From: a virus
Length of the DNA stretch: 33,982 nt
Direction: 5' to 3' (one strand)
IMG/VR virus record: IMGVR_UViG_3300030329_000867
Location: 1 to 33,982 of that record
Shown here: one piece after another, positions 1 to 33,982 of the stretch
How positions within the stretch are numbered: the first letter of the stretch is position 1
Layout: each line of letters starts with the position of its first letter
The notes under the pieces: generated by a model
Told to the model about the DNA's origin: nothing
The model's database searches: none
What the model saw: the letters and a program-made list of their open reading frames with translations, nothing else
Program-made: the position numbers and the translations under genes

Positions 1-99
1 ACTACGGAGCAACTTAGCGAAGACGGTAAGAGCTGTGTACTTAAAAAAGATGACGGTGGTGGCGGTGACGATGACCCAGCTTGTGAAAATGGAACGTAT
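1..99. repeat. Left window end duplicates 33837-33935
   Basis: Bases 1-99 are identical to 33837-33935 and diverge at base 100 (g here, a at 33936). This is one end of an unresolved tandem repeat inside the Cys-rich gene and marks the true junction 33935 to 100. Confidence 0.9.
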
Positions 100-753
100 G
101 ACCCAGACTCAGATGAATGTGTTTGTAACACTGGCTATACTTTTGCCAGAGATGGAGAGACAGGAGTACCGTTTTGTAAACCTGACGACACAACTCCTCA
201 GTGCACTTTACCAAACACTGTGTGGAGCGACGAAGCAAAGGACTGTGTTTGTAAAGATGGTTATGAAAATGTAGGAGAAAACGGAGAACTAGTTTGTCAA
301 CTTATTGATGGCGGTGGTGATCCTGTTACTCCTCAATGCCCTGCAAACGCCACTTGGGACAAAAACTTAGATGACTGTGTTTGTAACGCTGGCTTTACTA
401 AAAGCGCAGACGGTAAGAGCTGTGTACCTGACGGACTTCCGCCTTCGGGAACGTGTCCCGCAGGACAGGTAAAAGACCCAGAGACAGGGGAGTGTGTTGA
501 CGCGCCTCCTCCCCCCACTAGCGGCGGTGGTGGTGGTGGTGGTATGTTTAGCCCACAATCTGTAAACCTCGCTGGAGGAATTAATTACGCTTTGCCTCCT
601 TTTGTGCAGGTAGACTACACCCCACAACAAGCTATTTTGCCCTTTAACCCTTATTCGGGAGCAGAAGACGCGGCCATTACGTCATTAAACAAGGTGCTGT
701 ACGAAGAGACTTCAGAAGAACAAGACAGTCTATTTAAGACTTTTATAGGTTAA
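1..753 (+). CDS. Cys-rich EGF-like modular virion protein, C-terminal part (5' end at the other window end)
   Basis: Open from base 1 with no start codon, in the same frame as the open end of the gene at 32376-33982, so the two are halves of one gene. It shows about three EGF-like modules of the type C-x-C-N-x-G-[YF]-x(n)-DG-x-S-C, separated by Asp/Gly/Pro linkers, then a run of seven glycines and a hydrophobic, Cys-free C-terminal domain of about 70 residues ending at TAA 751-753. The adaptor gene follows after 12 bases, so a structural role in or on the tail is likely. I do not recognise a named family. EGF-like folds usually need disulfides, so the modules would be expected to fold fully only outside the reducing cytoplasm (inference). 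Confidence 0.75.
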   Translation, partial: TTEQLSEDGKSCVLKKDDGGGGDDDPACENGTYDPDSDECVCNTGYTFARDGETGVPFCKPDDTTPQCTLPNTVWSDEAKDCVCKDGYENVGENGELVCQLIDGGGDPVTPQCPANATWDKNLDDCVCNAGFTKSADGKSCVPDGLPPSGTCPAGQVKDPETGECVDAPPPPTSGGGGGGGMFSPQSVNLAGGINYALPPFVQVDYTPQQAILPFNPYSGAEDAAITSLNKVLYEETSEEQDSLFKTFIG

Positions 754-765
754 AGGAATGATTTG

Positions 766-1413
766 ATGACTTATTTAAATTTAGTTAACGGTGTCCTGAG
801 AAGACTCAGAGAAAACGAAGTCGCCACGGTTCAAGCAGACTCTTACAGTAAGCTGATTGGCGACCTTGTGAACGACGCCAAAGACCTCGTAGAAAGTGCC
901 TGGGATTGGTCGGCCCTTAGAACAACATTAGCCATTAACACCGTTGACGGTACGTACAATTACTCGTTAACAGGAAGTGGAGACAAAATAAAAGAACTGA
1001 ATGTTATAAACGACACGTCAAACTTAAACATGGAATATAGAACTAACAACTGGTTTGACGATAAATTTTACGTAGGGACACCCGCTAGTGGCGCTCCTGA
1101 ATACTACACTTACGCAGGAACAGACTCTAATGGAGACATGACTATTGATGTCTACCCTAAACCAGACGCTGTTTATGCTTTGCGTTTTGACAGTGTAAAA
1201 AGAAATGGTGTTCTTAGCGCCGACTCAGACACATTAAGCGTCCCTGAAAACCCTGTCGTACAACTAGCAGTTGCTTTTGCTGTAAGAGAAAGAGGAGAAA
1301 CTGGAGGAACTTCTACCGCAGAATACTTCCAGATAGCGAACAAGTACCTGTCTGACGCCGTTGCACACGACGCAGGCAGACACCCAGAAGAACTTATCTT
1401 CTTTACGCCTTGA
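766..1413 (+). CDS. Putative head-to-tail adaptor (T7 gp11/tail tubular A-like)
   Basis: A 215-residue protein, close to the 196 of T7 gp11. The N-terminus reads YLNLVNGVLRRLRE, a pattern common at the start of podoviral adaptor and packaged-DNA stabilisation proteins. It is followed by a helical segment containing a DW dipeptide and a beta-rich middle. I chose ATG 766 rather than TTG 763 because AAAGGA lies 8 bases upstream. The next gene encodes a large beta-rich protein, reproducing the T7 order gp11-gp12 followed by internal virion proteins. The role would be a ring beneath the portal joining it to the nozzle. The call rests on order, size and N-terminal pattern. Confidence 0.55.
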   Translation: MTYLNLVNGVLRRLRENEVATVQADSYSKLIGDLVNDAKDLVESAWDWSALRTTLAINTVDGTYNYSLTGSGDKIKELNVINDTSNLNMEYRTNNWFDDKFYVGTPASGAPEYYTYAGTDSNGDMTIDVYPKPDAVYALRFDSVKRNGVLSADSDTLSVPENPVVQLAVAFAVRERGETGGTSTAEYFQIANKYLSDAVAHDAGRHPEELIFFTP

Positions 1414-1420
1414 GGTTTAT

Positions 1421-2971
1421 ATGGCACAAGAACTAAAAAGCATAAATCTTGTTGCTCCGGGTTTCAAAGGTATAAACACCGAAGACGCCCCGTTAGCTCA
1501 AGACCCGTCTTTTGCTGAAGTTGCAGACAACGCTGTCATTGACCAGCGAGGACGTATTGCGGCCAGAAAAGGACTCAACGTTACCACCACAAACAAAACA
1601 GCGTTAGGTAGTGGAAAGCTGAGGGCGATTAAAGAATTTGTAAACGACAGTGGAACTACTAAAGTCTTTTCTGTCGGTAATAACAAAATACTCAGTGGTA
1701 CTGCGACACTGGCTGATGAGACACCGGGCGGCTACAGCATTTCTGCTGACGACTGGAAAATGGTTAACTTTAACAACAGCACTTACTTCTTTCAAAGAGG
1801 ATACCAGCCGCTTATTTACAACACTATAGCGTCAGGAACGTCTGGTGGTGCTAACAGTAATGTAGTTACGCTAAGTTCAGTCAACAGTGCTTCAGGACTT
1901 ACTTCTGCGATGTACGGTAATGAGGTACTAGCAGCTTATGGTAGGCTGTGGACAGCAGACTTTAGTACCGACAAGTCAACTGTGTACTGGTCTGACCTGT
2001 TGTCCGGCCACATTTGGACAGGAGGGTCTTCAGGGTCTATAGACATTTCTAAAGTATGGCCTGACGGTCGTGACGAAATTGTAGCTCTTGCTTCGCACAA
2101 CGACTCTTTAATTATCTTTGGTAAGCACAGTATTGTTGTTTACTCAGGTGCGACTGCTCCTGCTTCTATGGCTTTAGCAGACACTATATCCGGTGTAGGT
2201 TGTGTAGGTAGAGACACAGTGCAGTTTACTGGCACAGACGTTTTGTTTTTGTCCCACACAGGTCTTAAGAGTCTGGGCAGAACAATACAAGAAAAGTCTA
2301 TGCCAATCAGCAGTCTTTCCGGTACGATTACTAAGGACATTATTTCTTTAATAAAGTCAGAAACAGAGTTTTACAAGTCTATTTATTTCCCGGAAGAAAG
2401 TTTTTATTTAATTACTTTTACAGGGCACAACACAACTTACTGTTTTGACGTAAGAGGAACACTAGAAGACGGCTCCTACAGAGTAACACGATGGCCCGGA
2501 ACTGGCTTTACGAGTTACGAAAGGAAAAGAGACGCGACGTTGCTTATAGGAGGTTCTCACGGTATTGGGGCTTACTCTGGGTATTTAGACAGCACAAGTA
2601 CGTACCGTTTTCAGTACACAAGTCCTGAGTTAAGCTTTGGCGACATTACAAAACTAAAATTTCTTAAAAAACTAAGACCAGTTATTGTAGGCGGAAGCGG
2701 TGCAAACATCTATACAAAGTGGTCTTACGATTTTAAAACAAGCTCTGGAACTTCTTTTATATCTTTGCCTTCTCAGGCTATTGCATACTTTAATGAGTCA
2801 GAGTTTAACATAGGTCAGTTTTCATTGGGAGAACTTGTGACTTCTAAACTAAGCGTAAACGCTAACGGAAGCGGAACCAGTCTTTCTATTAACATGGAAG
2901 CAGACATAAACGGAGAAGAATTATCCTTACAGGAAATAAACGTGCTTGCACTACTAGGTAGAACAATATGA
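1421..2971 (+). CDS. Putative tail nozzle protein (T7 gp12/P22 gp10-like beta-propeller)
   Basis: A 516-residue beta-rich protein. The N-terminal region (NLVAPGFKGINTEDAPLA, then about 40 residues on to RGRIAARKG) is typical of podoviral nozzle and stabilisation proteins. The middle has blade-like repeats with Trp and Gly-Arg turns (LAAYGRLWTAD, VYWSDLLSGHIW). ATG 1421 is chosen over upstream in-frame codons because GAGG overlaps the stop of the adaptor gene (1411-1413) at suitable spacing, pointing to translational coupling. It is expected to form the lower tail tube through which DNA leaves. It is shorter than T7 gp12 (about 790 residues), and I see no peptidoglycan hydrolase motif. Confidence 0.55.
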   Translation: MAQELKSINLVAPGFKGINTEDAPLAQDPSFAEVADNAVIDQRGRIAARKGLNVTTTNKTALGSGKLRAIKEFVNDSGTTKVFSVGNNKILSGTATLADETPGGYSISADDWKMVNFNNSTYFFQRGYQPLIYNTIASGTSGGANSNVVTLSSVNSASGLTSAMYGNEVLAAYGRLWTADFSTDKSTVYWSDLLSGHIWTGGSSGSIDISKVWPDGRDEIVALASHNDSLIIFGKHSIVVYSGATAPASMALADTISGVGCVGRDTVQFTGTDVLFLSHTGLKSLGRTIQEKSMPISSLSGTITKDIISLIKSETEFYKSIYFPEESFYLITFTGHNTTYCFDVRGTLEDGSYRVTRWPGTGFTSYERKRDATLLIGGSHGIGAYSGYLDSTSTYRFQYTSPELSFGDITKLKFLKKLRPVIVGGSGANIYTKWSYDFKTSSGTSFISLPSQAIAYFNESEFNIGQFSLGELVTSKLSVNANGSGTSLSINMEADINGEELSLQEINVLALLGRTI

Positions 2972-3201
2972 GCGATTATACAAAGACAACAGACTTTGAA
3001 GCCAAAGACAGTTTATCTTCTGGAGACGCTGGAAAGGTTATTAAAGGCACAGAGTTTGAAACTGAATTTGACAACATTGCAACAGCTATTGCAACTAAAG
3101 CAAACTTAGCTGGTCCAACCTTTACTGGCACTGTGACCATAGCTGCTCTGACGTTTAGTGGCACGTTAGCGTCAGGGACTATTAACGGAGGGACTTACTA
3201 A
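2968..3201 (+). CDS. Small fibre-like structural protein
   Basis: Seventy-seven residues. The N-terminal half is a charged segment (TTDFEAKDSLSSGD then KVIKGTEFETEFDNIATAI) of a kind found at the start of many marine phage tail fibres. The C-terminal third is made of short Thr/Gly strands (GPTFTGTV, FSGTLASGT) like fibre-shaft repeats. Its ATG overlaps the nozzle stop as ATGA, and its own stop overlaps the next start as TAATG, so translation is tightly coupled. It may be a short fibre or an attachment collar subunit. The resemblance is to a sequence style and not to a specific family. Confidence 0.55.
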   Translation: MSDYTKTTDFEAKDSLSSGDAGKVIKGTEFETEFDNIATAIATKANLAGPTFTGTVTIAALTFSGTLASGTINGGTY

Positions 3202-4127: not shown

Positions 4128-4148
4128 GTATAGGGGAGTAAATAAATA

Positions 4149-5483
4149 ATGGCTACATTTTCACAGCAGTTTCTTAGTAATTTGGGAAACCCCACAGGTA
4201 TGCTTGTGGGTGCGACACAACTAGGGCAGGCACTAGGTAGTGTGCCGGGCCTTATTGCTGAGGCACAAAAAGCAAAACAAAAAAAGGAAGAAGAAGCACA
4301 GATAAATAAAGACTACGCTGCCGCTGTTAGGGCTAACAGTGCAAAAAAATTATATGAGCTTTCAAACCGAGCCACAACACAAGGAAAACCGGAGTTAGCA
4401 CAGCAACTGTTTGATAAAGCTCAAGAAGTAGAACAAAAAGTGGAAACACAAGAAAACTTTGTTGACAGAAAAGTTAGTTTATCTAACACCGCTCAAAACC
4501 TTGGTCTTGGTGATTTAGCTATACGAATAAGCGGAATAAAAGACGAAGATGAATTAAAAGAAATAGCTAAAGAAGTAAGAAAGCTAGAAATAGAACAATT
4601 ACCTTTGTCAAGTCCTCTAGTCCGAAAAAGAGCAGCTTCCGCTGCTGGAATCAGTGAAGCAGAGTTTACAGAAATGGGTTTAGACAAAGTGTCTGAAAAC
4701 GAATTTGCATCTATTATAGCTGGTGAAAAAGGAAATCTAAAGTCTTATCTTGACAAAGAAAACAACGTTGTCCAAGTTCGTGTTAATGAATCAGGTGTGC
4801 CTAAAGTGTTTGACTCAGAGCAAAACAAATGGGTTTTTGCTGATAAGTTAGGTCTTAGAGAAGCACCTTCTGTACAAAAAATAGAGAACATAGCAACAGG
4901 AATGGCAGACGAACTTGCCAAGATGGGAGCTAAAACTTTTACTGAAGCTTATGAAGGAGCTAAAAAATCTGCCGCTGCCCTTAGTACACTAAACAGAAGT
5001 ATTCCTAAGCTGGAGAACATGTTTACAGGGGCTTTTGCCGAGCAGAAATTAAACATTGCAAGATATGCTAGGGCGCTTGGGTTTTACCCTTCTAAAGCTG
5101 GTCCGTTGAATTTAGCTGGTCTTGACTCTATTGTAGACACAGAGACGTATATAGCAGACGCCGGACAACGTGTTGCTGATTATATCACTAACTTAGGTGC
5201 TGGAACAGGGTTGTCGGATGCGGATAGAGAGTACGCTTTAAAAATTGTAGGTGGAAAAATTACAGCAGACAAGGCAGCTTTAGCTAGACTGTTAGGTACT
5301 TTAAAAAGATATGCTGAGGCAAACATACAGCAATATAAAGACACACGAAAAAGGGTAGAAAAAGAATTAGGCCCAGACAACAAAAGTGCTTTATCTTTTT
5401 ACCCTGATAATTTTTATGTGGATGAAGGTCCAGTACATAGAGCTTCCCGTGCTGACTTAGACTCTTATTTCCCGTCAAGATGA
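4149..5483 (+). CDS. Putative internal virion protein B
   Basis: A 444-residue protein, almost wholly helical and charged. The first 35 residues are Gly/Ala-rich (NLGNPTGMLVGATQLGQALG), then comes a Lys/Gln/Glu-rich coiled-coil-like stretch (AQKAKQKKEEEAQINKDYAA). The C-terminal quarter again has long helices with Lys/Arg. GGGGAG lies about 10-12 bases upstream of ATG 4149. It is the second of three adjacent genes that probably encode proteins ejected with the DNA. I do not recognise a named family. Confidence 0.45.
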   Translation: MATFSQQFLSNLGNPTGMLVGATQLGQALGSVPGLIAEAQKAKQKKEEEAQINKDYAAAVRANSAKKLYELSNRATTQGKPELAQQLFDKAQEVEQKVETQENFVDRKVSLSNTAQNLGLGDLAIRISGIKDEDELKEIAKEVRKLEIEQLPLSSPLVRKRAASAAGISEAEFTEMGLDKVSENEFASIIAGEKGNLKSYLDKENNVVQVRVNESGVPKVFDSEQNKWVFADKLGLREAPSVQKIENIATGMADELAKMGAKTFTEAYEGAKKSAAALSTLNRSIPKLENMFTGAFAEQKLNIARYARALGFYPSKAGPLNLAGLDSIVDTETYIADAGQRVADYITNLGAGTGLSDADREYALKIVGGKITADKAALARLLGTLKRYAEANIQQYKDTRKRVEKELGPDNKSALSFYPDNFYVDEGPVHRASRADLDSYFPSR

Positions 5484-5520
5484 CATAGACACTTATTTAA
5501 CCCCGCCTTAAGGTATTAAA

Positions 5521-7191
5521 ATGTCGCAAAGAACACAAGAAGAATATAAAAAAGCAGTAGAAAACGCTATGCTGGCGCACGACAACGCTATCCAACAAGG
5601 TGAAATAGAAGAAGCAAAAAAACACTCAGAAGCTGCCGAAAAAATAGCAATAGAAGCTGTTTCTCTTTATGGTCCGTATCAACCTCCGTCAGACCCTGAC
5701 AATACATACGCTAAAGGCGTGTCTGAACGTTTTGAAGATTTTAAACCTGTAGAAACTTTAAAAGAATACCTAAGTGAGTTTACTCAGCGTAGGCAAACAT
5801 TAGGGGAAAGACCTTCGGCGTTGGCTGGCGCAATAGCTACAGCCGGTATCGGTTTGTCGCAAGCTGCTAGAACAGGAGGAGAGCTTTTAGCAGACGGTAT
5901 TAGTGTTCTTGTGCCGGATTTTGTTCGGGAAGGCGCAGAAACAGCATGGAACAGTATAAAAGAAAAACCTACAGTTCAACAGGGTTTACAGGCTCTTACA
6001 GACAGTTTAGAGGCTTATCAAGGGTGGGCAAGAGAAAACCCTGAAGTTGCTGAAGTAATTGAAACTACAGTTGACGTTGCAGCGTTAACCTCTTCTGCTG
6101 CAAAAATAGATATATCTTCGTCAGTTAAAAAAAGTAAAGACAAATTTGACAACGCTGTTGTCGAAGAACGCATGGCTGGTATTAAAAAGCTGCTTGGTCC
6201 AGAGTACGTTGGAGAACAAGGTTTTAATCAAAATCAATGGGTTTCTTCTGGCGGTATTTTAAATAAGTCTGAGTACGTGTTTAGCGAAAAAGAATTAAAA
6301 ATACACAGCGCAATAGAGTCGGTAAAAGAACTAAATGTTAACAGTCATTTTGTAAAAGCAGCCCAAGTAGTTCATAAAGCCATAGAAAAAAAATCAACAG
6401 AGCTTATTGCTTTTATTAAAAAAGCAGGAAATCCTAAATATAACAAAAAAGAATTTAAAGAAGAGTTAGAAGCAGAGTTTAAAAACTTAGGGAACTCTAA
6501 AGAGTGGGTAAATTTAACAGACGAAGCTCAAAATAAAACAAACGAGTACCTTAGAAAAGTTCTTGGTATGTTAGAGGAAAGTGACGGAGATTCTTTAGGT
6601 TTATTACAACTTAGACGAGATTTTGATGATCTCGTTAGTTTTGGCAGCGGAAAAAACCCGCTAGAACCCACCGTACAGTCGGCAAAAAGCACTGCTGGAA
6701 CTTTTGTAAGAAACGTTTTAAACGCAAAGTTACAAAGGATAACTCCTCAAAACGAAGTCAAAGATAGGTTAACTGATCTACATTATTTAATGTTGGGAAG
6801 GGACAGATTAAACGTAAGAAAACATAAAGAAGGCGGCAATAGAATAATAAGAACGTGGAATAAAATAAAAGATGATTTAAGTCTACCCTCGACACCACTT
6901 GCTTTAATGGCTACTTATGGTGCGGTAGGTACTGTAGGAGCTACAACAGGGTTAGGGGCAGGAGCTGCTACTTACATTGCGATACAAGGTCTTAAAAGAA
7001 AGTCTAGGTTAAAATTTTATGCTACTGTTCTATCAGGCTTAGACAAAACTATTAAAAAGTATCAAAGCGACAAAAATGTAGTAGCAGAACTTAGAGCAGA
7101 CAGGGCTTACATCGTTTATTTATTAAACGAAACTAGAAAAGAAACAGAAGAAGAAGAAAATCAACAAACAGCCGCAGCAGAAACTCAGTAG
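5521..7191 (+). CDS. Putative internal virion protein C with hydrophobic segment
   Basis: A 556-residue, Lys/Glu-rich helical protein. Near the C-terminus, about residues 460-490, is a long small-residue hydrophobic stretch (LALMATYGAVGTVGATTG continuing through GAGAATYIAI) that could insert into a membrane, as expected of a DNA-ejection channel component. Another hydrophobic Gly/Ala stretch lies near residues 95-125. The last residues are Glu/Gln-rich. TTAAGG is 7-10 bases before ATG 5521. It is the last gene of the rightward unit, and its final 7 bases overlap the convergent gene at 7185-7439. No catalytic motif is visible. Confidence 0.45.
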   Translation: MSQRTQEEYKKAVENAMLAHDNAIQQGEIEEAKKHSEAAEKIAIEAVSLYGPYQPPSDPDNTYAKGVSERFEDFKPVETLKEYLSEFTQRRQTLGERPSALAGAIATAGIGLSQAARTGGELLADGISVLVPDFVREGAETAWNSIKEKPTVQQGLQALTDSLEAYQGWARENPEVAEVIETTVDVAALTSSAAKIDISSSVKKSKDKFDNAVVEERMAGIKKLLGPEYVGEQGFNQNQWVSSGGILNKSEYVFSEKELKIHSAIESVKELNVNSHFVKAAQVVHKAIEKKSTELIAFIKKAGNPKYNKKEFKEELEAEFKNLGNSKEWVNLTDEAQNKTNEYLRKVLGMLEESDGDSLGLLQLRRDFDDLVSFGSGKNPLEPTVQSAKSTAGTFVRNVLNAKLQRITPQNEVKDRLTDLHYLMLGRDRLNVRKHKEGGNRIIRTWNKIKDDLSLPSTPLALMATYGAVGTVGATTGLGAGAATYIAIQGLKRKSRLKFYATVLSGLDKTIKKYQSDKNVVAELRADRAYIVYLLNETRKETEEEENQQTAAAETQ

Positions 7192-7439
7192 TGCAAAGAA
7201 AAAACTCTACGCAGTTCTTCTGCCATTATGTCTTTTCTGACTAACATACATTCCTTTGCAGAACCATAAGTTCTACACAGCGTTACGTAGTCGTCTTCAA
7301 AAGAAGACTTCTGTGGTTTGTTCATGGTTTTTATGTAAGTTTCTACTGTAGTACACCCTAACATACAAAACAGAATCAACACCGTTAACAAAGCAAGATA
7401 GAAATTGTTTTTATAAAACTGCGGTATTTTGTTTTTCAT
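7185..7439 (-). CDS. Small lipoprotein-like or membrane-anchored protein
   Basis: Eighty-four residues: a basic N-terminus (MKNKIPQFYKNN), a strongly hydrophobic core (YLALLTVLILFCMLGC) and then TTVETY. The pattern looks like a lipoprotein signal peptide with the lipidated Cys at about residue 29, although MLGC is a poor match to the classical lipobox. The mature part has two further Cys and a charged C-terminus. It starts inside the last 29 bases of iscU, with GAGGGG about 10 bases upstream of its ATG. It is the last gene of the leftward arm. An outer-membrane spanin or a superinfection-exclusion lipoprotein are possible roles, neither proven. Confidence 0.5.
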   Translation of the reverse strand: MKNKIPQFYKNNFYLALLTVLILFCMLGCTTVETYIKTMNKPQKSSFEDDYVTLCRTYGSAKECMLVRKDIMAEELRRVFSLHY

Positions 7440-7839
7440 TTTTTTGTAACCCCTCTTCAGTATTTTTATTTCTGTAGTCGTTTATAGCAGCCTTGATAGC
7501 GTCTTCCGCCAACACAGAACAATGAATTTTAACTGGCGGTAACGCAAGCTCTTCTGCTATCTGGACGTTCTGTATGTCTTCTGCTTGGTCCAGAGTACGT
7601 CCTTTAACCCACTCAGTAAGTAACGAGCTTGAAGCAATAGCACTCCCGCAGCCATAAGTTTTAAACTTAGCGTCCTCTATTATACCCGACACTTCGTTTA
7701 CCTTTATCTGTAAACGCATTACGTCGCCACAGGCAGGCGCTCCGACCATACCAGTACCCACGTTTTCGTCTTCTGCGTCAAGCTTACCGACGTTACGTGG
7801 GTTCTCGTAATGGTCTAGGACTTTATTGCTGTACGACAT
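7411..7839 (-). CDS. iscU: Iron-sulfur cluster assembly scaffold protein IscU
   Basis: A 142-residue, clear IscU/NifU-N family member, very close to bacterial IscU over residues 1-124. The cluster ligands are all present: Cys37 in GAPACGDV with Asp39, Cys64 in TYGCGSAIASSS, and His106-Cys107. The HscA-recognition motif LPPVK is intact at 100-104. IscU receives sulfur from the cysteine desulfurase IscS and iron, builds a [2Fe-2S] cluster, and passes it on with HscA/HscB help. No iscS, hscA, hscB or fdx gene lies nearby, so it would have to use the host machinery. An 18-residue polar tail beyond the usual end overlaps the next gene. The start is 2 bases after the reductase stop, so the two genes are probably co-translated. 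Confidence 0.95.
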   Translation of the reverse strand: MSYSNKVLDHYENPRNVGKLDAEDENVGTGMVGAPACGDVMRLQIKVNEVSGIIEDAKFKTYGCGSAIASSSLLTEWVKGRTLDQAEDIQNVQIAEELALPPVKIHCSVLAEDAIKAAINDYRNKNTEEGLQKNEKQNTAVL

Positions 7840-7841
7840 GG

Positions 7842-9713
7842 CTATATCTCACAACTGTTGCCGACACAAGCCAACTGCTGTGACCCTTCGGTCATGTCTG
7901 TTTCTTCTGAGACGTTCCAGTCTATTTCCTTAGGAAACTCCGCGACCAGTTTATCGTAAGTCTCTTTGTCTACAGGCTCATAAGGCGCTTGCTGGTAGGT
8001 GTGTTCTGAGTAAGGCAAAAAACTAATCCCACTAACCTTGTCGAAGTTGTTGTACAGCCACTGGCCGACCTGTAAAAACTCATGGTCTCTGTAGTAACAA
8101 GTCATGCTTGGCTTGTGTTCACACCAGTATTTTTGGTACGTTTCCCACAGGCACAACTGTTCCATAGCTCCCATGTCGGTAGCAACCACAGAGCCTTTAG
8201 GAGACTTCACAGGAAACGAAAAGACTTTGGTAGTAGGCGACGTCACGTCGTCCTCTACAGGCACTCCAGCGGTTTCTAAGACGTTACAGAGAGGGTCACG
8301 TGCGTCTGCCCTAACTCTCCTTATGTACTGCTCTGCGTATCGTGGGTGTATGCCTGACGCACTGTCCACCAACTGACTGACTGTGCCTGAAGGTTTAACA
8401 GCAGTAATTGCAGTGCTGACGTTAACGCCCAGACGTTCCGACCACTCGCTGTTTGTTTTAATGGCTTCTTCTTTGAGCTGCGTAAGCCAGTGTTGTAGTT
8501 CCTCACGTCCACCTCTGCCTGACATAATACGATGGTCCATAATCCCCGTGAGAGAAACACCAAGTAAAGCTTCTTCTTCCGTGTTGTCCTTCCACGTCTT
8601 ACGCAAGTACCGGAAGTCAGTTAATGTTGCCTGTAGTGTTCCAAGAATTGCAGCAGTTGTAACTTTAGTTCTTAGAGTCTGTAACGTGTCTTCCGGCCTA
8701 ACGACAACCTCAGACAGATTACAGAACTGATACGGCCTGAGTATAATTTCAGAACACGGGTTAGTACCAAAGTCTATTTCAGAGTCTCTGCGTCCGTTTC
8801 TGGCAGCTTGGGCTTGGCTTGCTACGCGACTGAAGACTCCGCGCTCTCCAGAATGAGACTCGTACAGGCTTTTCCACTCTTCTAAAAAAGCACCAAAGTC
8901 AGGTTTCTCTGTGTAACAGGCGGAGTTATTAGCAAGCCCACGTTGCGGATTGTCTACCCACCACTGTCCTGACTTGCACCTTCTTATTCTGTCGTCAGTG
9001 AGATTACTGAGACTGATGAGGGCACTTCGTCTGACTCCTCCGACGACGACGACTTGTGCAATCTTACAGCAGAGATCGTGACATTCGATAGAGTTGAGTC
9101 TTCTTCCAGCAGCGTTTCTAAAGACTTCAATAGTGAACTGGAAGAGGTCAACAAGAGGCTCAGGACCACTCGCTCTACCTCCAAAAGTTTTAAGGGGCGA
9201 CCCCGCAGGTCTAACTCCAGATACGTCCCGCTTGGGAACTTGACCAATATACAACATTGCAACAAGTTCGCGGTAAGCTTTTGCCCAGCCAATCTTTGAG
9301 TCAGCGACGTGTATAACTGTATCGGTATCATGAAACTTCTCTGCTACTTCGGGTAATTTACTTATGTACTGTCTCTCTACACTAAACCCTACACCTGTTC
9401 CACACATCAAAACGTACATCATTTCGTCAAACGCTTTAGGATGGTCTATAGGCAAGTAAGAACAATTAAAGCCAGCCACGTTGTCTTTGTGTAAAGCTTC
9501 TCCAGCAGTCATTAAAGCTCTCATGCTAGGCATGACGTTAAGCGAATGTATTTGCGTGAAGATGTCTTTAGCTTCGCTTGCTGTAAGCTTGTCCTGATCC
9601 ATCCAGAAATTTAAATAACGGTTTACTGTTTCTTCCCAAGACTCCCTGCGCTGTTGCTCTGGTAAGTACCTTGCGTATCGTGACTTGTGTATGTACTGTT
9701 GATATGCGTCCAT
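7842..9713 (-). CDS. nrdJ: Adenosylcobalamin-dependent ribonucleotide reductase, monomeric class II (RTPR type)
   Basis: A 623-residue protein of the Lactobacillus leichmannii RTPR type. It reduces ribonucleotides (triphosphates in RTPR) to deoxyribonucleotides using a coenzyme-B12 radical, needing neither oxygen nor a second subunit. Key residues are visible: Cys84 in GFNCSYLPID, the pair Cys320 (NPCSEI, with Glu322) and Cys331 (CNLSEV) with the same 11-residue spacing as Cys408/Cys419 of RTPR, and the C-terminal shuttle pair Cys616 and Cys621 (CVGNSCEI). AAGGA lies 6 bases before ATG. It is shorter than RTPR (739). It follows the DUF3310 gene and precedes iscU. It supplies dNTPs for phage replication, and the host or its surroundings must provide B12. 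Confidence 0.93.
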   Translation of the reverse strand: MDAYQQYIHKSRYARYLPEQQRRESWEETVNRYLNFWMDQDKLTASEAKDIFTQIHSLNVMPSMRALMTAGEALHKDNVAGFNCSYLPIDHPKAFDEMMYVLMCGTGVGFSVERQYISKLPEVAEKFHDTDTVIHVADSKIGWAKAYRELVAMLYIGQVPKRDVSGVRPAGSPLKTFGGRASGPEPLVDLFQFTIEVFRNAAGRRLNSIECHDLCCKIAQVVVVGGVRRSALISLSNLTDDRIRRCKSGQWWVDNPQRGLANNSACYTEKPDFGAFLEEWKSLYESHSGERGVFSRVASQAQAARNGRRDSEIDFGTNPCSEIILRPYQFCNLSEVVVRPEDTLQTLRTKVTTAAILGTLQATLTDFRYLRKTWKDNTEEEALLGVSLTGIMDHRIMSGRGGREELQHWLTQLKEEAIKTNSEWSERLGVNVSTAITAVKPSGTVSQLVDSASGIHPRYAEQYIRRVRADARDPLCNVLETAGVPVEDDVTSPTTKVFSFPVKSPKGSVVATDMGAMEQLCLWETYQKYWCEHKPSMTCYYRDHEFLQVGQWLYNNFDKVSGISFLPYSEHTYQQAPYEPVDKETYDKLVAEFPKEIDWNVSEETDMTEGSQQLACVGNSCEI

Positions 9714-20577: not shown

Positions 20578-20895
20578 ATGCAAACATCGTGCCATGTTGC
20601 CCATGTTGCCCATGTTGCCCATGTTGCCCGTGTTGGCCTTATGCAAGAACCGTGCCAACTTTGGTCGCTACCACAGACAGCAACAGAAGTCAACACATGC
20701 AAAGCCCGTGCCAACTTTGGCAAACACGACATGAATTTTACTCATGTTGCCAGCGTGTAACATGAATTTGACTCATGTTGCTCTGTATGCAAAACCCGTG
20801 CCAACTTTGGCAAACCGGCCTTGAGTTTGACTCATGTTAATCCGGTTTAACTTGAATTTGATTCATGTTGACTAAAGTTGGCATGATTTTTGCAT
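20578..20895. repeat. Array of two alternating dyad motifs
   Basis: Motif R, ATGCAAANCCCGTGCCAACT followed by TTGG: degenerate copy at 20578-20599, good copies at 20641-20664, 20697-20724 and 20787-20815, and an inverted copy at 20871-20895. Two copies (20697 and 20787) carry the perfect dyad TGCCAA-CT-TTGGCA. Motif D, CATGAATTTGACTCATGTTG, with a CATGA/TCATG dyad: copies at 20730, 20761, 20820 and 20851, the last two degenerate at the left arm. R and D alternate in part. Confidence 0.85.
20593..20637. repeat. Tandem 9-bp repeat CATGTTGCC
   Basis: Four perfect contiguous copies (20593, 20602, 20611, 20620) and a fifth diverged copy (CGTGTTGGC at 20629). The same 9-mer is the right end of the motif D copy at 20730, so the tandem probably grew from it by slippage. 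Confidence 0.9.
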
Positions 20896-20974
20896 ACCGG
20901 GGGCCGTGGTTGTGTTATGTTTTTTATTATTGTTCCTACTCTCGTACAAAATAAGCCAAAATTAGCAAAAATAA

Positions 20975-21014
20975 ACCCCTGTTTTTCACAAGTTACCCCT
21001 TGTTTTTACACAAG
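20975..21014. repeat. Direct repeat with CTTGT/ACAAG dyad
   Basis: ACCCCTGTTTTTCACAAG (20975-20992) is repeated with small changes at 20995-21014, where CTTGT and ACAAG form inverted arms. It lies 35 bases before the late promoter -35 box and may bind a regulator. Confidence 0.5.
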
Positions 21015-27381: not shown

Positions 27382-28362
27382 ATGGCTACTGCCACATACC
27401 CCGGAGCAGCGGGTAATACTGCATTAACAGAGGCGGCAACTTTTGTCCCCGAAATTTGGTCGGACGAAATTATTGCTGCTTATCAGAAGAATCTGAAGAT
27501 GGCTCCGCTTGTCAAGAAAATATCTATGACAGGCAAAAAAGGAGACAAGCTTCATATTCCTAAACCCACTAGAGGCGATGCTGCGGCTAAAGCTGCTGAT
27601 ACGGCAGTTACAATCATCGCTAACACTGAAAGCGAACTGACTGTGGACATCAACCGTCACTTCGAGTATTCACGACTCGTAGAAGACATTGTTGAAGTTC
27701 AGGCTCTTAGCAGCCTCCGTCAGTTTTACACAGAAGACGCTGGTTATGCTCTCGCAACGAGAGTAGACACTGACCTCCATTCCGCAGGAACTGGTTTTGG
27801 TAATGGCGGCGCAGTTGTTTTTTCTGCTGCTGTAGCTCCTACTGACTATCAGCATACCGGCTGTTTCTTCAACGACGGCGGAACAACGACTCAGTACACA
27901 GACGACACTATTGTCGCTGCTGACGTTTTTTCTGATGCGTTTTTCCGTGACATGATTCAGAAACTTGACGACAACGACGTTCCTATGGAAGAACGTGTAC
28001 TTATAATCCCGCCTTCTGTTCGGAAGACAATTATGGGTATAGATCGTTACGTGTCCTCTGATTTTGTCGGCGGTCAAGCAGTACAGTCCGGTCTTATCGG
28101 CAACCTGTACGGCGTTGACGTTTATGTGTCTTCCAACTGCGCTACTATAGAGGCTGCTGGAGACAACACCGCATCGTCTGTTGACACTCGTGGTGCTTTG
28201 CTTTTCCACAGGGACGCTATAGTTCTTGCAGAACAGCAGACAGTACGTTCTCAAACCCAGTACAAACAGGAATACCTGTCTACTCTGTTCACGGCTGACT
28301 GCCTGTACGGTGTTCAGGTCTATCGTCCTGAGGCTGGTTTCGTTCTCGCTATTGGTGAGTAA
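27382..28362 (+). CDS. Major capsid protein
   Basis: A 326-residue protein following the scaffold and ending just before a strong terminator. The N-terminus TAATFVPEIWSDEIIAAYQK, then KGDKLHIPKP and DINRHFEYSRLVEDI, fits HK97-fold coat proteins of podoviruses of the P22-like/N4-gp56-like kind. The C-terminal region has VYVSSNC, then HRDAIVLAEQQ and YRPEAGFVLAIGE, the usual closing strand. GGAG lies about 10 bases before ATG. The abundance expected of a coat protein matches the terminator placed right behind it. Confidence 0.9.
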   Translation: MATATYPGAAGNTALTEAATFVPEIWSDEIIAAYQKNLKMAPLVKKISMTGKKGDKLHIPKPTRGDAAAKAADTAVTIIANTESELTVDINRHFEYSRLVEDIVEVQALSSLRQFYTEDAGYALATRVDTDLHSAGTGFGNGGAVVFSAAVAPTDYQHTGCFFNDGGTTTQYTDDTIVAADVFSDAFFRDMIQKLDDNDVPMEERVLIIPPSVRKTIMGIDRYVSSDFVGGQAVQSGLIGNLYGVDVYVSSNCATIEAAGDNTASSVDTRGALLFHRDAIVLAEQQTVRSQTQYKQEYLSTLFTADCLYGVQVYRPEAGFVLAIGE

Positions 28363-28429: not shown

Positions 28430-29431
28430 ATGGCAACTACAATCAAATTAAAAAATGGTTCGGGTGCGCCAGCAGCCAGCGACCTTGTTCAAGGGGAACC
28501 TGCACTAGACCTAACTAACAAAAGGCTGTACTCAGAAAACTCTAGTGGTACAGTAATTGAAATAGGGTCTAACCCGTCAGCTTTGTCTATTGCAGGGACA
28601 GCGGTTACGTCCACAGCGGCTGAACTAAACATTCTGGACGGCGTTACGTCCACAGCAGCAGAACTTAATATACTGGACGGAGTGACTTCGACTACCGCAG
28701 AGCTTAACATCCTTGACGGTGTGACAGCTACAGCTGCTGAACTGAACATCATGGACGGAGTTACTGCTACTACAGCAGAACTCAACATCATGGACGGTGT
28801 TACGTCAACGGCTGCTGAGTTAAACATTCTGGACGGTGTTACTTCGTTTTTAGACGAAGACAACATGGCGTCTGACAGTGCCACAAGTATACCGTCGCAG
28901 CAGTCAGTGAAAGCTTATGTTCAGGCTCAGACAGGCACGTCACCGGGGTCGGAGTTTACGTCCCCTATTATAAATGCAGGGGCGCAACTAAAGAATGGCG
29001 CAACCAGCGCAGGGTATCTTGAGTTCTTTGAAGACTCAGACAACGGGACAAACAAAGTAACGCTTATTGGTCCTGCTGCAACGGCTGACGTAACTATAAC
29101 ACTTCCTGCTTCAGCAGACACTTTAGTTGGTAAAGCAACAACAGACACCTTAACTAATAAAACACTAACAACACCTGTTATTAACGCAGGAGCGCAGTTA
29201 AAGAACGGTGCTACTGGTGCTGGTTTTTTAGAGTTCTTTGAGGACTCAGACAACGGTACAAACAAGGTAACATTGATTGGCCCTGCGTCTACAGCAGACA
29301 TTACTTTAACACTTCCATCTAGTGATGGAGATTCTGGACAGTACCTACAAACAAACGGCTCTGGTGTAATGAGTTGGGCAGATGTTACGGGAATGTCTAC
29401 AAGCAAAGCTTTCTATATGGGACAATTATAA
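28430..29431 (+). CDS. Tail-fibre-like repeat protein
   Basis: A 333-residue protein. Residues 1-47 form an N-terminal domain (IKLKNGSGAPAASDLVQGEP, LDLTNKRLYSE) typical of fibre attachment segments. Residues 61-138 are six tandem copies of a 13-residue repeat close to STAAELNILDGVT. Residues 177-226 and 247-296 are two near-identical copies of a strand-rich block beginning INAGAQLKNGAT. This architecture belongs to trimeric beta-structured phage fibres. No chaperone or receptor-binding tip is visible, so the following genes may supply it. The ribosome-binding site is weak. Confidence 0.75.
   Translation: MATTIKLKNGSGAPAASDLVQGEPALDLTNKRLYSENSSGTVIEIGSNPSALSIAGTAVTSTAAELNILDGVTSTAAELNILDGVTSTTAELNILDGVTATAAELNIMDGVTATTAELNIMDGVTSTAAELNILDGVTSFLDEDNMASDSATSIPSQQSVKAYVQAQTGTSPGSEFTSPIINAGAQLKNGATSAGYLEFFEDSDNGTNKVTLIGPAATADVTITLPASADTLVGKATTDTLTNKTLTTPVINAGAQLKNGATGAGFLEFFEDSDNGTNKVTLIGPASTADITLTLPSSDGDSGQYLQTNGSGVMSWADVTGMSTSKAFYMGQL
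28610..28843 (+). repeat. Six tandem 39-bp (13-residue) repeats in the fibre gene
   Basis: Six in-frame units coding [ST]-[ST]-[AT]-AELNI-[LM]-DGVT. The protein units are nearly identical while their codons differ a great deal at third positions, so the array is old and kept by selection rather than newly duplicated. Confidence 0.9.
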
Positions 29432-29739
29432 TGGCAGTTAAAATTTCAGGCGTTGATCTAAGCGCAGACACAACAGCAAATATAGGACAAGCTGGTTCAA
29501 GCGGTGGAACTTATACTGTCCATATCCTAAATCGGGGGAGCGGCTCAGCCCTTGTGCAACTAGGCGTAGGTGACTCTAGTGCAACATTTGCGAACGCTCA
29601 AAAACTTCTTGAGTCTACACTGGTAGGACCAAATGAGTCCTTAACCTTTAGTCCTGTGGTAGCAGGTGCTAATGACTATGTAATTGGACGTAGTTCACTA
29701 GCAAGTGTAAACATGGTAATGATGGGGCATGACGAATAA
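29431..29739 (+). CDS. Small structural protein, unknown (102 residues)
   Basis: Starts at ATG 29431, overlapping the fibre stop as TAATG, with GGGA about 9 bases upstream. Beta-rich and Gly/Ser-rich (KISGVDLSADTTANIGQAGS, then TYTVHILNRGSGSALVQLG), ending SVNMVMMGHDE. The composition suggests a compact virion decoration or fibre-associated protein. It is coupled to the next gene by TAATG. Confidence 0.65.
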   Translation: MAVKISGVDLSADTTANIGQAGSSGGTYTVHILNRGSGSALVQLGVGDSSATFANAQKLLESTLVGPNESLTFSPVVAGANDYVIGRSSLASVNMVMMGHDE

Positions 29740-30746
29740 TGGCTGGCTTAACTAGAAATAAAATAACTTATGGCTCACTCCCTCCGTGGCCTCGTCCTAT
29801 TAATTCTGGTTATTTTTACGGCCAGAATTCTCTTGGGGAAGCAGGGCAACAATATGCACCAGCCTTCCAAAACGACAGTGTTACTGGCAGTAGTTTTAAA
29901 ATCTTAATGACGAGTGGCGGTCAGGAGGCTATTACTTACTACAACGGACAAGGAACACAGATAACAGATGGCGTTTGGTCTAGTGGCTTTACTCCTAGTG
30001 AAGCGTGGAGCGACGCAGATCAATGGGCTAGTCTGTATATGGATTCTTCGGATAACAAACTGTATGCGTTAGTGTATGACACAGGCACCAGTCCAAACAC
30101 GTATAGAATGACGAGTGTTGACAAAGATGGGACGGTAGTTCTGGAAACTGCGGCATTTCAAGTTACTAATACAGGACTTAACGCCCTTCAATTTAGTTAT
30201 GGTTCAACTACGCCCAAGCTGTACCGAGTTGGTCATGTGGATGGAACTGGGAATTTTCGTTTTGACCAATATAGGGCAAACACAGACGATGACGATACTG
30301 GCGCTCCTTTTGATGGGGTCCGTTTAGAAATAAACACGTCTGGTGGTACAGTGAACAGTATATCAGCGAATACTATGGCTGAAGTAACTGATGGTATTTT
30401 GCCAAGTAATTTTTATGCGTCAACCTTTACACGAGACAATATGCTCGGGCCGACATCAAATAACATTGTAGGGGGACCGGAAGGACGCTGGAATAACATT
30501 CAAGATTTTCATACGGGGAATTTACTTAATCTTACTACTGGTAAATTTGCCGTTGAAATTCCTTTTGGGAAAGACTGTCCAATAATGTTCCAGTCTAGTG
30601 GAGGGGGTTACTCGCCGCAGCATTGGCTAGGTAATTATCGTTTTTTCTGCCCCGGAAGTGGGTATCAGATGGCAGGTGTTGAATTTGAACGTGCGGCATT
30701 TCATAATTTTATAGATGAAATGGCTGTTTACTACGGGATACTATGA
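29739..30746 (+). CDS. Putative fibre-tip or receptor-binding structural protein
   Basis: A 335-residue protein rich in Gly, Ser, Asn, Tyr and Trp, with a beta-strand style (SSGFTPSEAWSDADQWASLY, YALVYDTGTSPNTYRM) and short Gly-rich turns. No catalytic motif is apparent. Its place directly behind the fibre-like gene in a TAATG-coupled chain suggests a distal fibre or host-recognition protein. It resembles no family I can name, as is common for fast-evolving receptor-binding proteins. Confidence 0.55.
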   Translation: MAGLTRNKITYGSLPPWPRPINSGYFYGQNSLGEAGQQYAPAFQNDSVTGSSFKILMTSGGQEAITYYNGQGTQITDGVWSSGFTPSEAWSDADQWASLYMDSSDNKLYALVYDTGTSPNTYRMTSVDKDGTVVLETAAFQVTNTGLNALQFSYGSTTPKLYRVGHVDGTGNFRFDQYRANTDDDDTGAPFDGVRLEINTSGGTVNSISANTMAEVTDGILPSNFYASTFTRDNMLGPTSNNIVGGPEGRWNNIQDFHTGNLLNLTTGKFAVEIPFGKDCPIMFQSSGGGYSPQHWLGNYRFFCPGSGYQMAGVEFERAAFHNFIDEMAVYYGIL

Positions 30747-31056: not shown

Positions 31057-31512
31057 GTGTTAGCAGAAGTCGCGGGATGTGTCGCATTAATTAAAGGTGT
31101 TTCGGAAGCAGTAGGTGCGCTTAATGAGTCTGCTGATGCAGCGTCTCAGCTTGGTAGTGTAATCGCAAGGTTTTCCAAAGCTAACGATCAAGTTTTAAAG
31201 ACAGAAAAAGAAAACCTTGGTAGACTTACAGTTGAAGACAGCATACAAATTCAAATATGTAAAAAAAACTTAGCTACCTTTCACCGCAATTTAAAGGACG
31301 CAATGCTTATTGCAGGGTTGGCTGGTGACTACGCTGAAATAATGGCTCGTGTTGAAGAAAGTAAACTAGAACACGAAAAAAGAATTTCAGCCATGAAAAG
31401 AAAACAAAGAGAAAAAGAAAAAGAATTACAAAAGATGCTGGAAACAGTCTTACTCGTCGGTCTTGTTGGCGCGTTAGGTGCAGTAGCTTTTTTTATTCTT
31501 TTTCGTATGTAA
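31057..31512 (+). CDS. Coiled-coil protein with C-terminal membrane anchor
   Basis: A 151-residue protein. The N-terminal part is Ala/Ser-rich (ALIKGVSEAVGALNESADAA), the centre is a long charged helix (ESKLEHEKRISAMKRKQREK and onward), and the last 22 residues are a strong membrane span (VLLVGLVGALGAVAFFILF). The start is GTG 31057, with AAGGA about 9 bases upstream. It opens a set of four membrane-associated small genes. The layout resembles lysis accessory proteins, but a virion or spanin-like role is equally open. Confidence 0.65.
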   Translation: MLAEVAGCVALIKGVSEAVGALNESADAASQLGSVIARFSKANDQVLKTEKENLGRLTVEDSIQIQICKKNLATFHRNLKDAMLIAGLAGDYAEIMARVEESKLEHEKRISAMKRKQREKEKELQKMLETVLLVGLVGALGAVAFFILFRM

Positions 31513-31532
31513 AACACAGGAGAATTTACTAG

Positions 31533-31748
31533 ATGAAAACTATATTTGAAGCTATACGAGACTGGTTTTTGATGGCTTGGGAAACTGTGAAGACTCCTGA
31601 ATTTTGGATTGTCCCGCAGGAAACAGAAAAGAAAAGCAACTTTTGGTCAGCCAAAGAAGAAGAAGAAACACCAGAAGAACTAAAGACAGAAACAACAGAA
31701 GCAGCGGTAGAGGCTGCACCTGAACCGGCAACCGCAAAACAAATTTAA
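31533..31748 (+). CDS. Small acidic protein, unknown (71 residues)
   Basis: An N-terminal aromatic amphipathic helix (MKTIFEAIRDWFLMAWETVK) that could lie on a membrane is followed by a Glu/Thr/Ala/Pro-rich, probably disordered tail. AGGAG is about 10 bases upstream. It lies between two membrane-protein genes of the presumed lysis cluster. Confidence 0.6.
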   Translation: MKTIFEAIRDWFLMAWETVKTPEFWIVPQETEKKSNFWSAKEEEETPEELKTETTEAAVEAAPEPATAKQI

Positions 31749-31754
31749 AGTTTA

Positions 31755-32138
31755 ATGTCTTTTATTACTAACATACTAGGCGGCTTTGGAAGTAAAGTCG
31801 TTGAAGCTGTAGACAATCGCTCTGAAAGAAAGCACGTAGAAAAAGTACGAAAGCTAGAGATAGAAGAACTAAGACACAAAACTAAAATGGACATGCTCGC
31901 CAGAGGACAAGAGCTAGACAATAGCTGGGAAATAGAACAAATTAAAAACTCTGGTTGGAAAGACGAAGCTGTCCTTGTGACTTTGCTGATTCCTCTCTGG
32001 CTTTGTTTTATTCCTTACACTGTTGTGTACGTTGAAAAGGGGTTTAATGCTTTGGCGCTTACTCCTGACTGGTATCAGTGGCTTATTCTTGTAATTTTTG
32101 CTGCGATATACGGCGTAAGAATATGGAGAAGGAAGTAG
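31755..32138 (+). CDS. Putative holin
   Basis: A 127-residue protein. The N-terminal half is charged and helical (NRSERKHVEKVRKLEIEELR). The C-terminal half has two membrane spans (EAVLVTLLIPLWLCFIPYTV and WLILVIFAAIYGVRIW) separated by a short loop with Pro and Trp, ending in RRK. This matches a type of holin seen in marine podoviruses. Holins form the inner-membrane lesion that frees the endolysin, here probably the M15 peptidase at 21488. The call rests on topology and context. Confidence 0.6.
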   Translation: MSFITNILGGFGSKVVEAVDNRSERKHVEKVRKLEIEELRHKTKMDMLARGQELDNSWEIEQIKNSGWKDEAVLVTLLIPLWLCFIPYTVVYVEKGFNALALTPDWYQWLILVIFAAIYGVRIWRRK

Positions 32139-32374
32139 TGAGTAACGACTTTGATAAACCAAGCTACGCTATAGATTTAGCTGTACAAGCTTTAGAACGT
32201 ATTGCAAGACACGAAAAAGAATGTGGTGAGCGGTGGTCCGAAGCAATGGTAGAACTAAAAGAACTAAAAAAAGCAACAGACACTCATGCTGCTCGTTGGG
32301 AAAAGTTAGCGTGGCTCTTTGTCGGTACGGCAGTTACTTGTACCGCCACAATCTTAACCACGACTTTACTGTAA
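32138..32374 (+). CDS. XhlA-like coiled-coil protein with C-terminal membrane span
   Basis: Seventy-eight residues from GTG 32138 (reads SNDFDKPSYAIDLAVQALER), overlapping the holin-like stop as TAGTG, with a GGAGAAGGAAG site just upstream. ATG 32123 would add five residues but has a poor ribosome site. A charged helix is followed by a membrane span (LAWLFVGTAVTCTATILTTT), the plan of XhlA-type lysis proteins. The next gene starts 1 base after the stop. Confidence 0.6.
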   Translation: MSNDFDKPSYAIDLAVQALERIARHEKECGERWSEAMVELKELKKATDTHAARWEKLAWLFVGTAVTCTATILTTTLL

Positions 32375-32375
32375 A

Positions 32376-33982
32376 ATGCCAACTTCTTATTCTATAACTC
32401 CTCAATCTATAAAAGACTTTATTATTCGTCTTGTTAGAAGTCTCAGACCATATCAAACAACCCTTGAAGTAAATAATCAAGACTGGCTTAGAATTAACGA
32501 TTGGTTTAATAAATATGAACTTTCTCCTGTTTCGTCACCGCTTAGTATAGATGATTTTTACAGTATATATCTATATGCTGTAGAAGAAGAAAACAGGAGA
32601 AGACAGGCAGAAGCACAAGAAGAAGGTTCTTTAGACCCAGACCCTGATTTAACTGACGGAGACGACGACTTACAAAACGGCACAGTTCCTCCTCCTTCTG
32701 ACAAGTTTAATGAGTCTTTAAGAGCAAATGTAGAAGCTCTGGACGAAGCTTTTAATCAGATAATAACACAATTAGAAGAGCGTGGCGTACCTGAAGAAGA
32801 GATAGAGGCTTTTCGTAAAGCTGTAACACCAGTCTACGAAGGGTTTGGAAGCCGTACTATGGGACAGCCGGGCGGCTCCATCCCGATAGACATACCGGAC
32901 TCTCCCATGCCTAAGTGGGAACGCGGTACTGGCGTTTCTATTACAATAGGAGACCCTGACAACCCTAACTCTGGAAACGATGACATATATATTACGCTCC
33001 ACCTTGAGCTGCCAGTTATCGGGCCGTTGCTTGAAACTCTTGGTGTTGGGGGAGGAAAAATATACTTAAGGAAGGCCGGAAAGTGGAGTACGCCGGGTGA
33101 CGTGTTAGAAAGAGTCGGTGGTGTTTTTGCAGACATTTTAAAAACTCCTAAAGCTATTTTAGACGAAGCAAAAACAATTATAGAAGGCATAGAAGACGGA
33201 ACTGTATTTGAAGGTATCAAAAAAGGAGAAGGTTTATTTGCTGACCTGCTAAAAAAATGGTTAATAGGCAGATACCCGTGGTTTGAAGATGAGTGGTTTA
33301 AAGATTTTATAAAACAATCTGAAGAGCTTGCACGTCAAAGTGGACTTCTTACTCTTTCTGAGCTGGACACCGAAGAAAAGTGTAACGCTACTGGAACGCA
33401 TATTTGGGACGACACAACTAAGAGTTGTAAAGAAGCAGAACCTAAGGAAGTAACTGAGGATGTTGTTCCTCCTCCAGAAAAAACAGAAGAAGAGTGTCTA
33501 GCTGAAGGGAATGACTGGGACGGAGAAAAATGTGTTTTTGTTCCTGAGGATGAGAAAAAAGCAAAGTGTTTAGCAAGAGGTGGTACATGGGAAAATGGTC
33601 AATGTACTCTTCCTCCTGTTGATCCACAACAAGTGTGTGCACAAAGAGGCGGTAGGTGGGATCCGTTAGCAAACAACGGTGAAGGGGGCTGTATAACAGA
33701 TGACGGTGGTGGCGGTGACGATGACCCAGCTTGTGAAAATGGAACGTATAACAAAACTTTAGAAAGGTGTGAGTGTAACTTTGGTTGGGTAGAAAGCGCT
33801 GATGGTAAAAGCTGTGAAAAAGTTGTCTGTGATGAAACTACGGAGCAACTTAGCGAAGACGGTAAGAGCTGTGTACTTAAAAAAGATGACGGTGGTGGCG
33901 GTGACGATGACCCAGCTTGTGAAAATGGAACGTATAACAAAACTTTAGAAAGGTGTGAGTGTAACTTTGGTTGGGTAGAAAG
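32376..33982 (+). CDS. Cys-rich EGF-like modular virion protein, N-terminal part (continues at window start)
   Basis: Open to the window end (535 codons) and in frame with 1-753. Joined at 33935-to-100 the protein has 737 residues plus 62 for each further repeat unit. Residues 1-330 are helical and acidic, with a Gly/Pro-rich domain near 160-240. From about 330 come four two-Cys modules of the type C-x(3)-GG-x-W-x(n)-C (for example CLARGGTWENGQC), then EGF-like modules (CENGTY, RCECNFGWVESADGKSC) within a 62-residue tandem repeat. It sits between lysis-type genes and the adaptor/nozzle genes, so it is probably a tail-associated spike or appendage. I recognise no named family. Confidence 0.75.
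   Translation, partial: MPTSYSITPQSIKDFIIRLVRSLRPYQTTLEVNNQDWLRINDWFNKYELSPVSSPLSIDDFYSIYLYAVEEENRRRQAEAQEEGSLDPDPDLTDGDDDLQNGTVPPPSDKFNESLRANVEALDEAFNQIITQLEERGVPEEEIEAFRKAVTPVYEGFGSRTMGQPGGSIPIDIPDSPMPKWERGTGVSITIGDPDNPNSGNDDIYITLHLELPVIGPLLETLGVGGGKIYLRKAGKWSTPGDVLERVGGVFADILKTPKAILDEAKTIIEGIEDGTVFEGIKKGEGLFADLLKKWLIGRYPWFEDEWFKDFIKQSEELARQSGLLTLSELDTEEKCNATGTHIWDDTTKSCKEAEPKEVTEDVVPPPEKTEEECLAEGNDWDGEKCVFVPEDEKKAKCLARGGTWENGQCTLPPVDPQQVCAQRGGRWDPLANNGEGGCITDDGGGGDDDPACENGTYNKTLERCECNFGWVESADGKSCEKVVCDETTEQLSEDGKSCVLKKDDGGGGDDDPACENGTYNKTLERCECNFGWVE
33698..33982 (+). repeat. 186-bp (62-codon) in-frame tandem repeat, copy number unresolved
   Basis: 33884-33982 (the last 99 bases) are identical to 33698-33796, an offset of 186 bases; the base before each copy differs (a at 33883, c at 33697). 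The unit codes a DDGGGGDDDP linker, one EGF-like module and a second Cys pair. The window stops inside the second copy, so the true number of units is unknown. Confidence 0.9.

Follow-up and report, generated by a model that had tools for sequence, protein, structure and literature searches.

Hypervariable islands of marine phages often contain recognition genes (Mizuno et al. 2014, PMC3909814). Near-identical phages differ in the genes they carry in such metaviromic islands (PMC3909814; Polarivirus skadi, PMC10504331), which hold C1q, lectin and tail-fibre genes and are delimited by their low read recruitment; the locus described here behaves in the same way, but it was defined by genome comparison and is a defined slot at a tail adaptor gene, its products having a C-terminal motif and paired-cysteine or spacer bodies. 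A second related system is the long tail fibre of the T7/SU10 type, for which the SU10 adaptor serves as the fibre-docking ring (PMC9509320). As with these fibres, our gene lies beside the adaptor gene and encodes a long variable distal body; however, the conserved part of the slot proteins is C-terminal, not N-terminal, and neither Pfam nor PHROGs contains a tail-fibre domain that matches the protein. For its cysteine modules, the comparison is with the EGF domain, whose canonical form has six cysteines paired 1-3, 2-4 and 5-6. Particles built in a reducing cytoplasm usually avoid disulfide chemistry. In the open-access papers searched, we found no description of the slot, of its C-terminal motif or of paired-cysteine chains within it, and nothing close on phage virion proteins that are EGF-like or rich in disulfides. 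That marine phages carry hypervariable genes for recognition was known already; it is the cysteine pairing that is new here.

The DNA analysed, hereafter the window, is the entire virus record IMGVR_UViG_3300030329_000867 (33,982 nt), and the hypervariable gene is interrupted by its two ends (Table 1). The final 99 nt of the window recur exactly 186 bp further upstream, and its first 99 nt (1-99) are identical to 33837-33935; because of these exact 99-nt overlaps, both contig ends are placed inside one 186-bp (62-codon) repeat loop, which would be the expected output of a k=99 assembly graph at such a loop. The 40 nt separating the ends are supplied by repeat copy 1 (33797-33836). The reading frame closes across the junction; thus the gene product has at least 799 aa (535+14+250), and the real gene has at least two of the 62-residue units. 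The joined protein carries 34 cysteines, of which 17 (5' part) and 15 (3' part) are read directly and two lie in the implied 40 nt.

Table 1. Coordinates of the hypervariable gene, its parts and the neighbouring genes in the window
Feature	Position	Strand	Remarks
5' part of hypervariable gene, residues 1-535	32376..33982	+	ORF open to window end, 535 codons
3' part of same gene, last 250 residues, stop 751-753	1..753	+	ORF open at window start, 250 codons; 99-nt overlap
Cys-free N-terminal part	32376..33380	+	middle region weakly like Cys-free relatives; low-confidence model, pLDDT 46
Four two-Cys hairpin modules, C-x3-G-x(2,3)-W/H ... C	33381..33692	+	
Complete copy of 186-bp (62-residue) tandem repeat	33699..33884	+	C-x11-C-x-C-x12-C module + C-x13-C module
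Second tandem-repeat copy, cut by contig end	33885..33982	+	resumes at 1-48 past 40 unsequenced nt
Diverged half-EGF modules, C-x-C-x2-G-[FWY]	49..495	+	cEGF 33.4 bits; blastp to L206; predicted beta-hairpins
Poly-Gly codons (GGT x6) between arm and C-terminal part	about 526..543	+	
C-terminal part, GGINYALPPFVQVDYTPQ ... LNKVL ... SLFKTFIG	565..750	+	related to C-terminus of relatives (profile HMM)
SU10-type tail adaptor gene	763..1413	+	directly downstream, family anchor; Pfam PF24175, 49.9 bits (cut-off 27)
Nozzle / tail-tube-B-like gene	1361..2971	+	PHROG matches to virion/connector families
Three further virion or ejection candidates	3201-7191		
Capsid gene	27382-28362		
Fibre-like genes	28430-30746		
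Small membrane-protein (lysis-like) genes	31057-32374		just upstream of hypervariable gene

The cysteine region is built of two kinds of module. The motif C-x3-[GN]-x2-[WYFH] occurs four times against 0.31 expected, a number reached by one of 1000 shuffles of the non-cysteine residues, and the EGF signature C-x-C-x2-G-[FWY] occurs at five sites against 0.05 expected, as high as in none of 1000 shuffles. Of the four C-x(3)-GG-x-W modules noted in the first-pass annotation, all four are present in the form C-x3-G-x(2,3)-W/H, while the literal GG-x-W is found in two only; the tandem 62-residue unit, the Asp/Gly linkers and the poly-Gly stretch were seen again as it had described them. Its EGF-like label needs to be narrowed. 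The Pfam model cEGF (PF12662, EGF clan) scores 33.4 bits in the 3' half, above its curated cut-off of 26.6, and 14.5 bits in the 5' half, below it; the cysteine spacing gives four-cysteine half-EGF and two-cysteine hairpin modules joined by Gly/Asp linkers, in contrast to the six cysteines of EGF, and we therefore class the modules, by their sequence, as EGF-like and not as EGF. The first cysteine pair of the C-x-C module probably closes its own hairpin, unlike in EGF.

The predicted structure of the cysteine region consists of beta-hairpins at moderate confidence (mean pLDDT 69, pTM 0.29), and in our reading of sequence and model together each predicted hairpin appears to be bracketed by two cysteines. 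A structure search of this region against the PDB returned no match at E<0.001; its top rows were small disulfide-rich modules (EGF, CCP, TNFR) with Z 4.2 at best, the best being TgMIC6 EGF2 (VIA Z 4.2, 44 residues, rmsd 2.9). A viral match at 3.7e-4, to a giant-virus chitin-binding-type protein, was set aside as too weak. The 3' cysteine region is related to that of L206, L240 and L237 (blastp 1.8e-8, 9e-8 and 4.6e-7), and thus a transfer of modules or a common module pool is likely. The middle region scored 12.5 bits with the seed profile of Cys-free relatives against at most 5.4 in 500 shuffles, but it did not rise above shuffles with a widened profile, and we treat the weak similarity as a lead only; its structure model was poor and was left uninterpreted.

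No whole-protein homologue was found in phage genomes or viral contigs. Because the gene itself is not conserved, relatives were gathered through its neighbours, with the nozzle, capsid and adaptor proteins as queries. They belong to an uncultured short-tailed lineage that is common in marine viral metagenomes (at least 600 matches); in the phage-genome collection, neither the window protein nor the sister-clade adaptor had a relative, and the matches to nozzle and capsid were distant. The SU10-type adaptor identified by Pfam, followed by the nozzle-like gene, bears out the earlier assignment to a podovirus. Wherever a contig reaches that far, the slot upstream of the adaptor is occupied (at least 218 loci, at least 186 distinct genes, at least 127 of full length), and among the matches listed the full-length products span 88-1338 aa. 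Their bodies are Cys-free spacers (DDVTT, SIDVTP, PVET, EELPPGS, VDDT), collagen-like GxDGxDG stretches (Pfam Collagen), Hint domains (Pfam PT-HINT and Vint above cut-off, PF07591 and PF14623) or Cys-rich chains; Pfam gave nothing at E<0.001 on eight relatives, seven of them Cys-rich. The Cys-rich character seen at first reading therefore holds for the window and is no constant of the gene, the slot being a hypervariable cassette. The ten nearest full-length relatives of the window have either few cysteines or a Hint domain. Of the 52 rows in the window's adaptor clade among the matches listed, none but the window itself is Cys-rich, whereas the sister clade has many Cys-rich alleles. On a quick adaptor tree the Cys-rich label changes at least nine times, so that Cys-rich bodies repeatedly arose, or were acquired or lost.

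The Hint domain, absent from the window protein, lies between spacer and C-terminus in the same slot of L005 (7208-9406), L008, L010, L011, L014, L029 and L259, and in the close relatives of the window it occupies the place of the window's cysteine modules. These domains have both their initial Cys and the HN motif at their end; as the residue after HN is Lys in those read, they are likely to cleave rather than splice. Very short alleles (L195, L202 and similar, 151 aa) retain the ...YMKMLNQALLGSLFKDLI C-terminus but hardly any body, and are perhaps the minimal form of the slot.

Between near-identical phages, the gene is replaced by unrelated content. In the pairs L233/L231 and L230/L228, flanks about 99% identical on both sides enclose unrelated genes, and flanks up to 99% identical were found around unrelated genes with 36 and 2 cysteines. 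For 83 pairs of alleles whose adaptors share at least 97% identity, the identical portion of the shorter gene product has a median of 22%, whereas the downstream nozzle DNA, in the 51 of these pairs that were comparable, has a median identity of 96.6%. Between the window and its closest relative, L004, the flanking DNA is 77% identical on one side and 81% on the other, with no similarity in the gene itself. The length variation predicted at first reading, already evident in the size range of the family, was caught directly in L170 and L169, 99.9% identical, one of which has lost a repeat block in frame between direct repeats. Alleles thus change in two ways, one in which the whole gene is exchanged and one in which repeats are lost. 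Complete exchange next to tail genes that stay constant suggests that the product is exposed and under diversifying selection. In L008 (2515-4339), a second region lacks DNA similarity to L005, the two phages being otherwise 97-99% identical; it probably consists of fibre genes.

The slot proteins usually end in a short hydrophobic C-terminal motif. [LIVM]F within the last 22 residues is found in 81% of distinct family C-termini versus 24% of control ORFs, and the window C-terminus matches a profile HMM of the relatives' C-termini at 18.8 bits (E 2.7e-5), the best of 500 shuffles reaching 6.1. The relation between C-termini thus extends across clades. The C-terminus is also swapped between alleles with identical adaptors; thus it would have to be the motif, not a fixed sequence, that docks.

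The cysteines of these bodies are even in number. Among the matches listed, every one of the 37 full-length alleles that carry 10 or more cysteines has an even count, as do 25 of 25 once near-duplicates (alleles sharing half or more of their 6-mers) are removed. Relatedness remains in this set, and the figure should not be read as a clean probability. Of the other ORFs with 10 or more cysteines, 13 of 18 are even. Cysteine counts of near-identical Cys-rich alleles always differ by an even number, and the single cysteines of Cys-poor members are nearly all the first residue of a Hint domain. This is strong sequence evidence that the cysteines come in pairs, and together with the hairpins predicted between them it upholds the pairing suggested in the first-pass annotation.

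We propose that the gene product is a hypervariable, C-terminally docked virion arm, stiffened by disulfides in this phage and probably used for host-surface contact, a reading to which we give an even chance. The gene is one allele of a slot between upstream structural and lysis-like genes and the tail adaptor gene. The short hydrophobic C-terminal motif, usually after poly-Gly, would dock at the head-tail connector, for which the adaptor is a plausible anchor because the SU10 adaptor is a fibre-docking ring, and the long exchangeable N-terminal body would project outward to the host surface. In the window phage, the end of this body would be a row of small hairpins, about 17 of them, each closed by a single cysteine pair; in relatives, it is formed by Pro/Thr-rich, acidic, collagen-like or Hint-containing spacers. 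A hydrophobic N-terminal segment is present in none of the 36 Cys-rich members nor in the window protein, and with no signal sequence seen the cysteines would pair either once the cell has lysed or, following ejection, in the periplasm; on our proposal they would do so after lysis, in oxic sea water. Several observations run counter to an arm: the exchange of the C-terminus described above, the Hint domain of several relatives, which if active would cut the arm from its anchor, the separate fibre-like genes of the phage, and the poor model of the middle region. Whether such proteins make up a new class of appendage, with a constant C-terminal docking motif and exchangeable arms, some of them disulfide-locked hairpin chains that are flexible inside the cell and become rigid only after release, is a tentative and rather doubtful extension; if true, a component of the virion would mature through oxidation that takes place outside the host. 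Complete exchange of a gene whose neighbours stay 97-99% identical is the mark of strong diversifying selection at that point, which is probably where the host is contacted; with cysteines strictly paired in tens of alleles, disulfide chemistry would lie at the heart of that contact.

The protein might instead lie inside the virion and pass into the periplasm by ejection at infection; there the host would oxidise its cysteine pairs, and it would aid in building or shielding the DNA channel or in blocking superinfecting phages. The periplasm is oxidising, the gene sits in the structural block, Gly/Ala-rich hydrophobic stretches like those of ejection proteins occur in L130, L137, L193 and L242, and internal virion proteins are also found in marine phage islands (PMC3909814). 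Yet the usual positions of ejection proteins downstream are already filled (3201-7191), a TM-like segment is present in only 9 of 127 full-length members, and a gene replaced in full next to tail genes that are identical is more easily reconciled with a surface target, so that we consider ejection unlikely. Still less probable is a late non-virion protein, released at lysis as a decoy, matrix or anti-superinfection factor and coupled to the adaptor gene by chance: we infer the virion location, small lysis-like membrane proteins are encoded just upstream, and in some relatives our reading of the ORFs places an endolysin-like gene there, but the protein has no signal sequence, and the tight coupling to the adaptor gene and the conserved C-terminal motif suggest a phage partner.

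Two further explanations concern the cysteines and the gene model rather than the role. Cysteines acting as metal (Zn) ligands in a cytoplasmic protein could draw on an upstream match to a Zn ribbon, a weak one that stays under the cut-off (PF17848, 20.2 bits); however, metal sites would favour multiples of four, whereas the totals include 26, 30, 34, 42, 46, 50, 54, 58 and 62, and the window carries the C-x-C-x2-G-aromatic signatures, which makes this account very improbable. That the gene is an assembly artefact, a chimera at the repeat, is hardly credible: the repeat does contain both contig ends, but the graph loop accounts for both, frame and unit length are consistent, the two halves share identical module types with the family C-terminus in the 3' half, and in relatives contig ends, taken as a sign of repeats, are not enriched within the slot gene (0.25/kb against 0.61 upstream and 0.24 downstream).

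Elsewhere in the window, nearly all near-clade homologues of the virion protein at 3201-4124 terminate in GGLF or a sequence close to it, a second C-terminal LF motif within the same operon. A fibre-like gene contains a 39-bp tandem repeat of about six copies (28604-28842, TAAELNILDGVT), and several tandem repeats (9, 90 and 21 bp) lie between the replication and packaging blocks (20592-21014). By eye, a NifU/IscU-like gene (7411-7839) adjoins a ribonucleotide-reductase-like gene (7842-9713).
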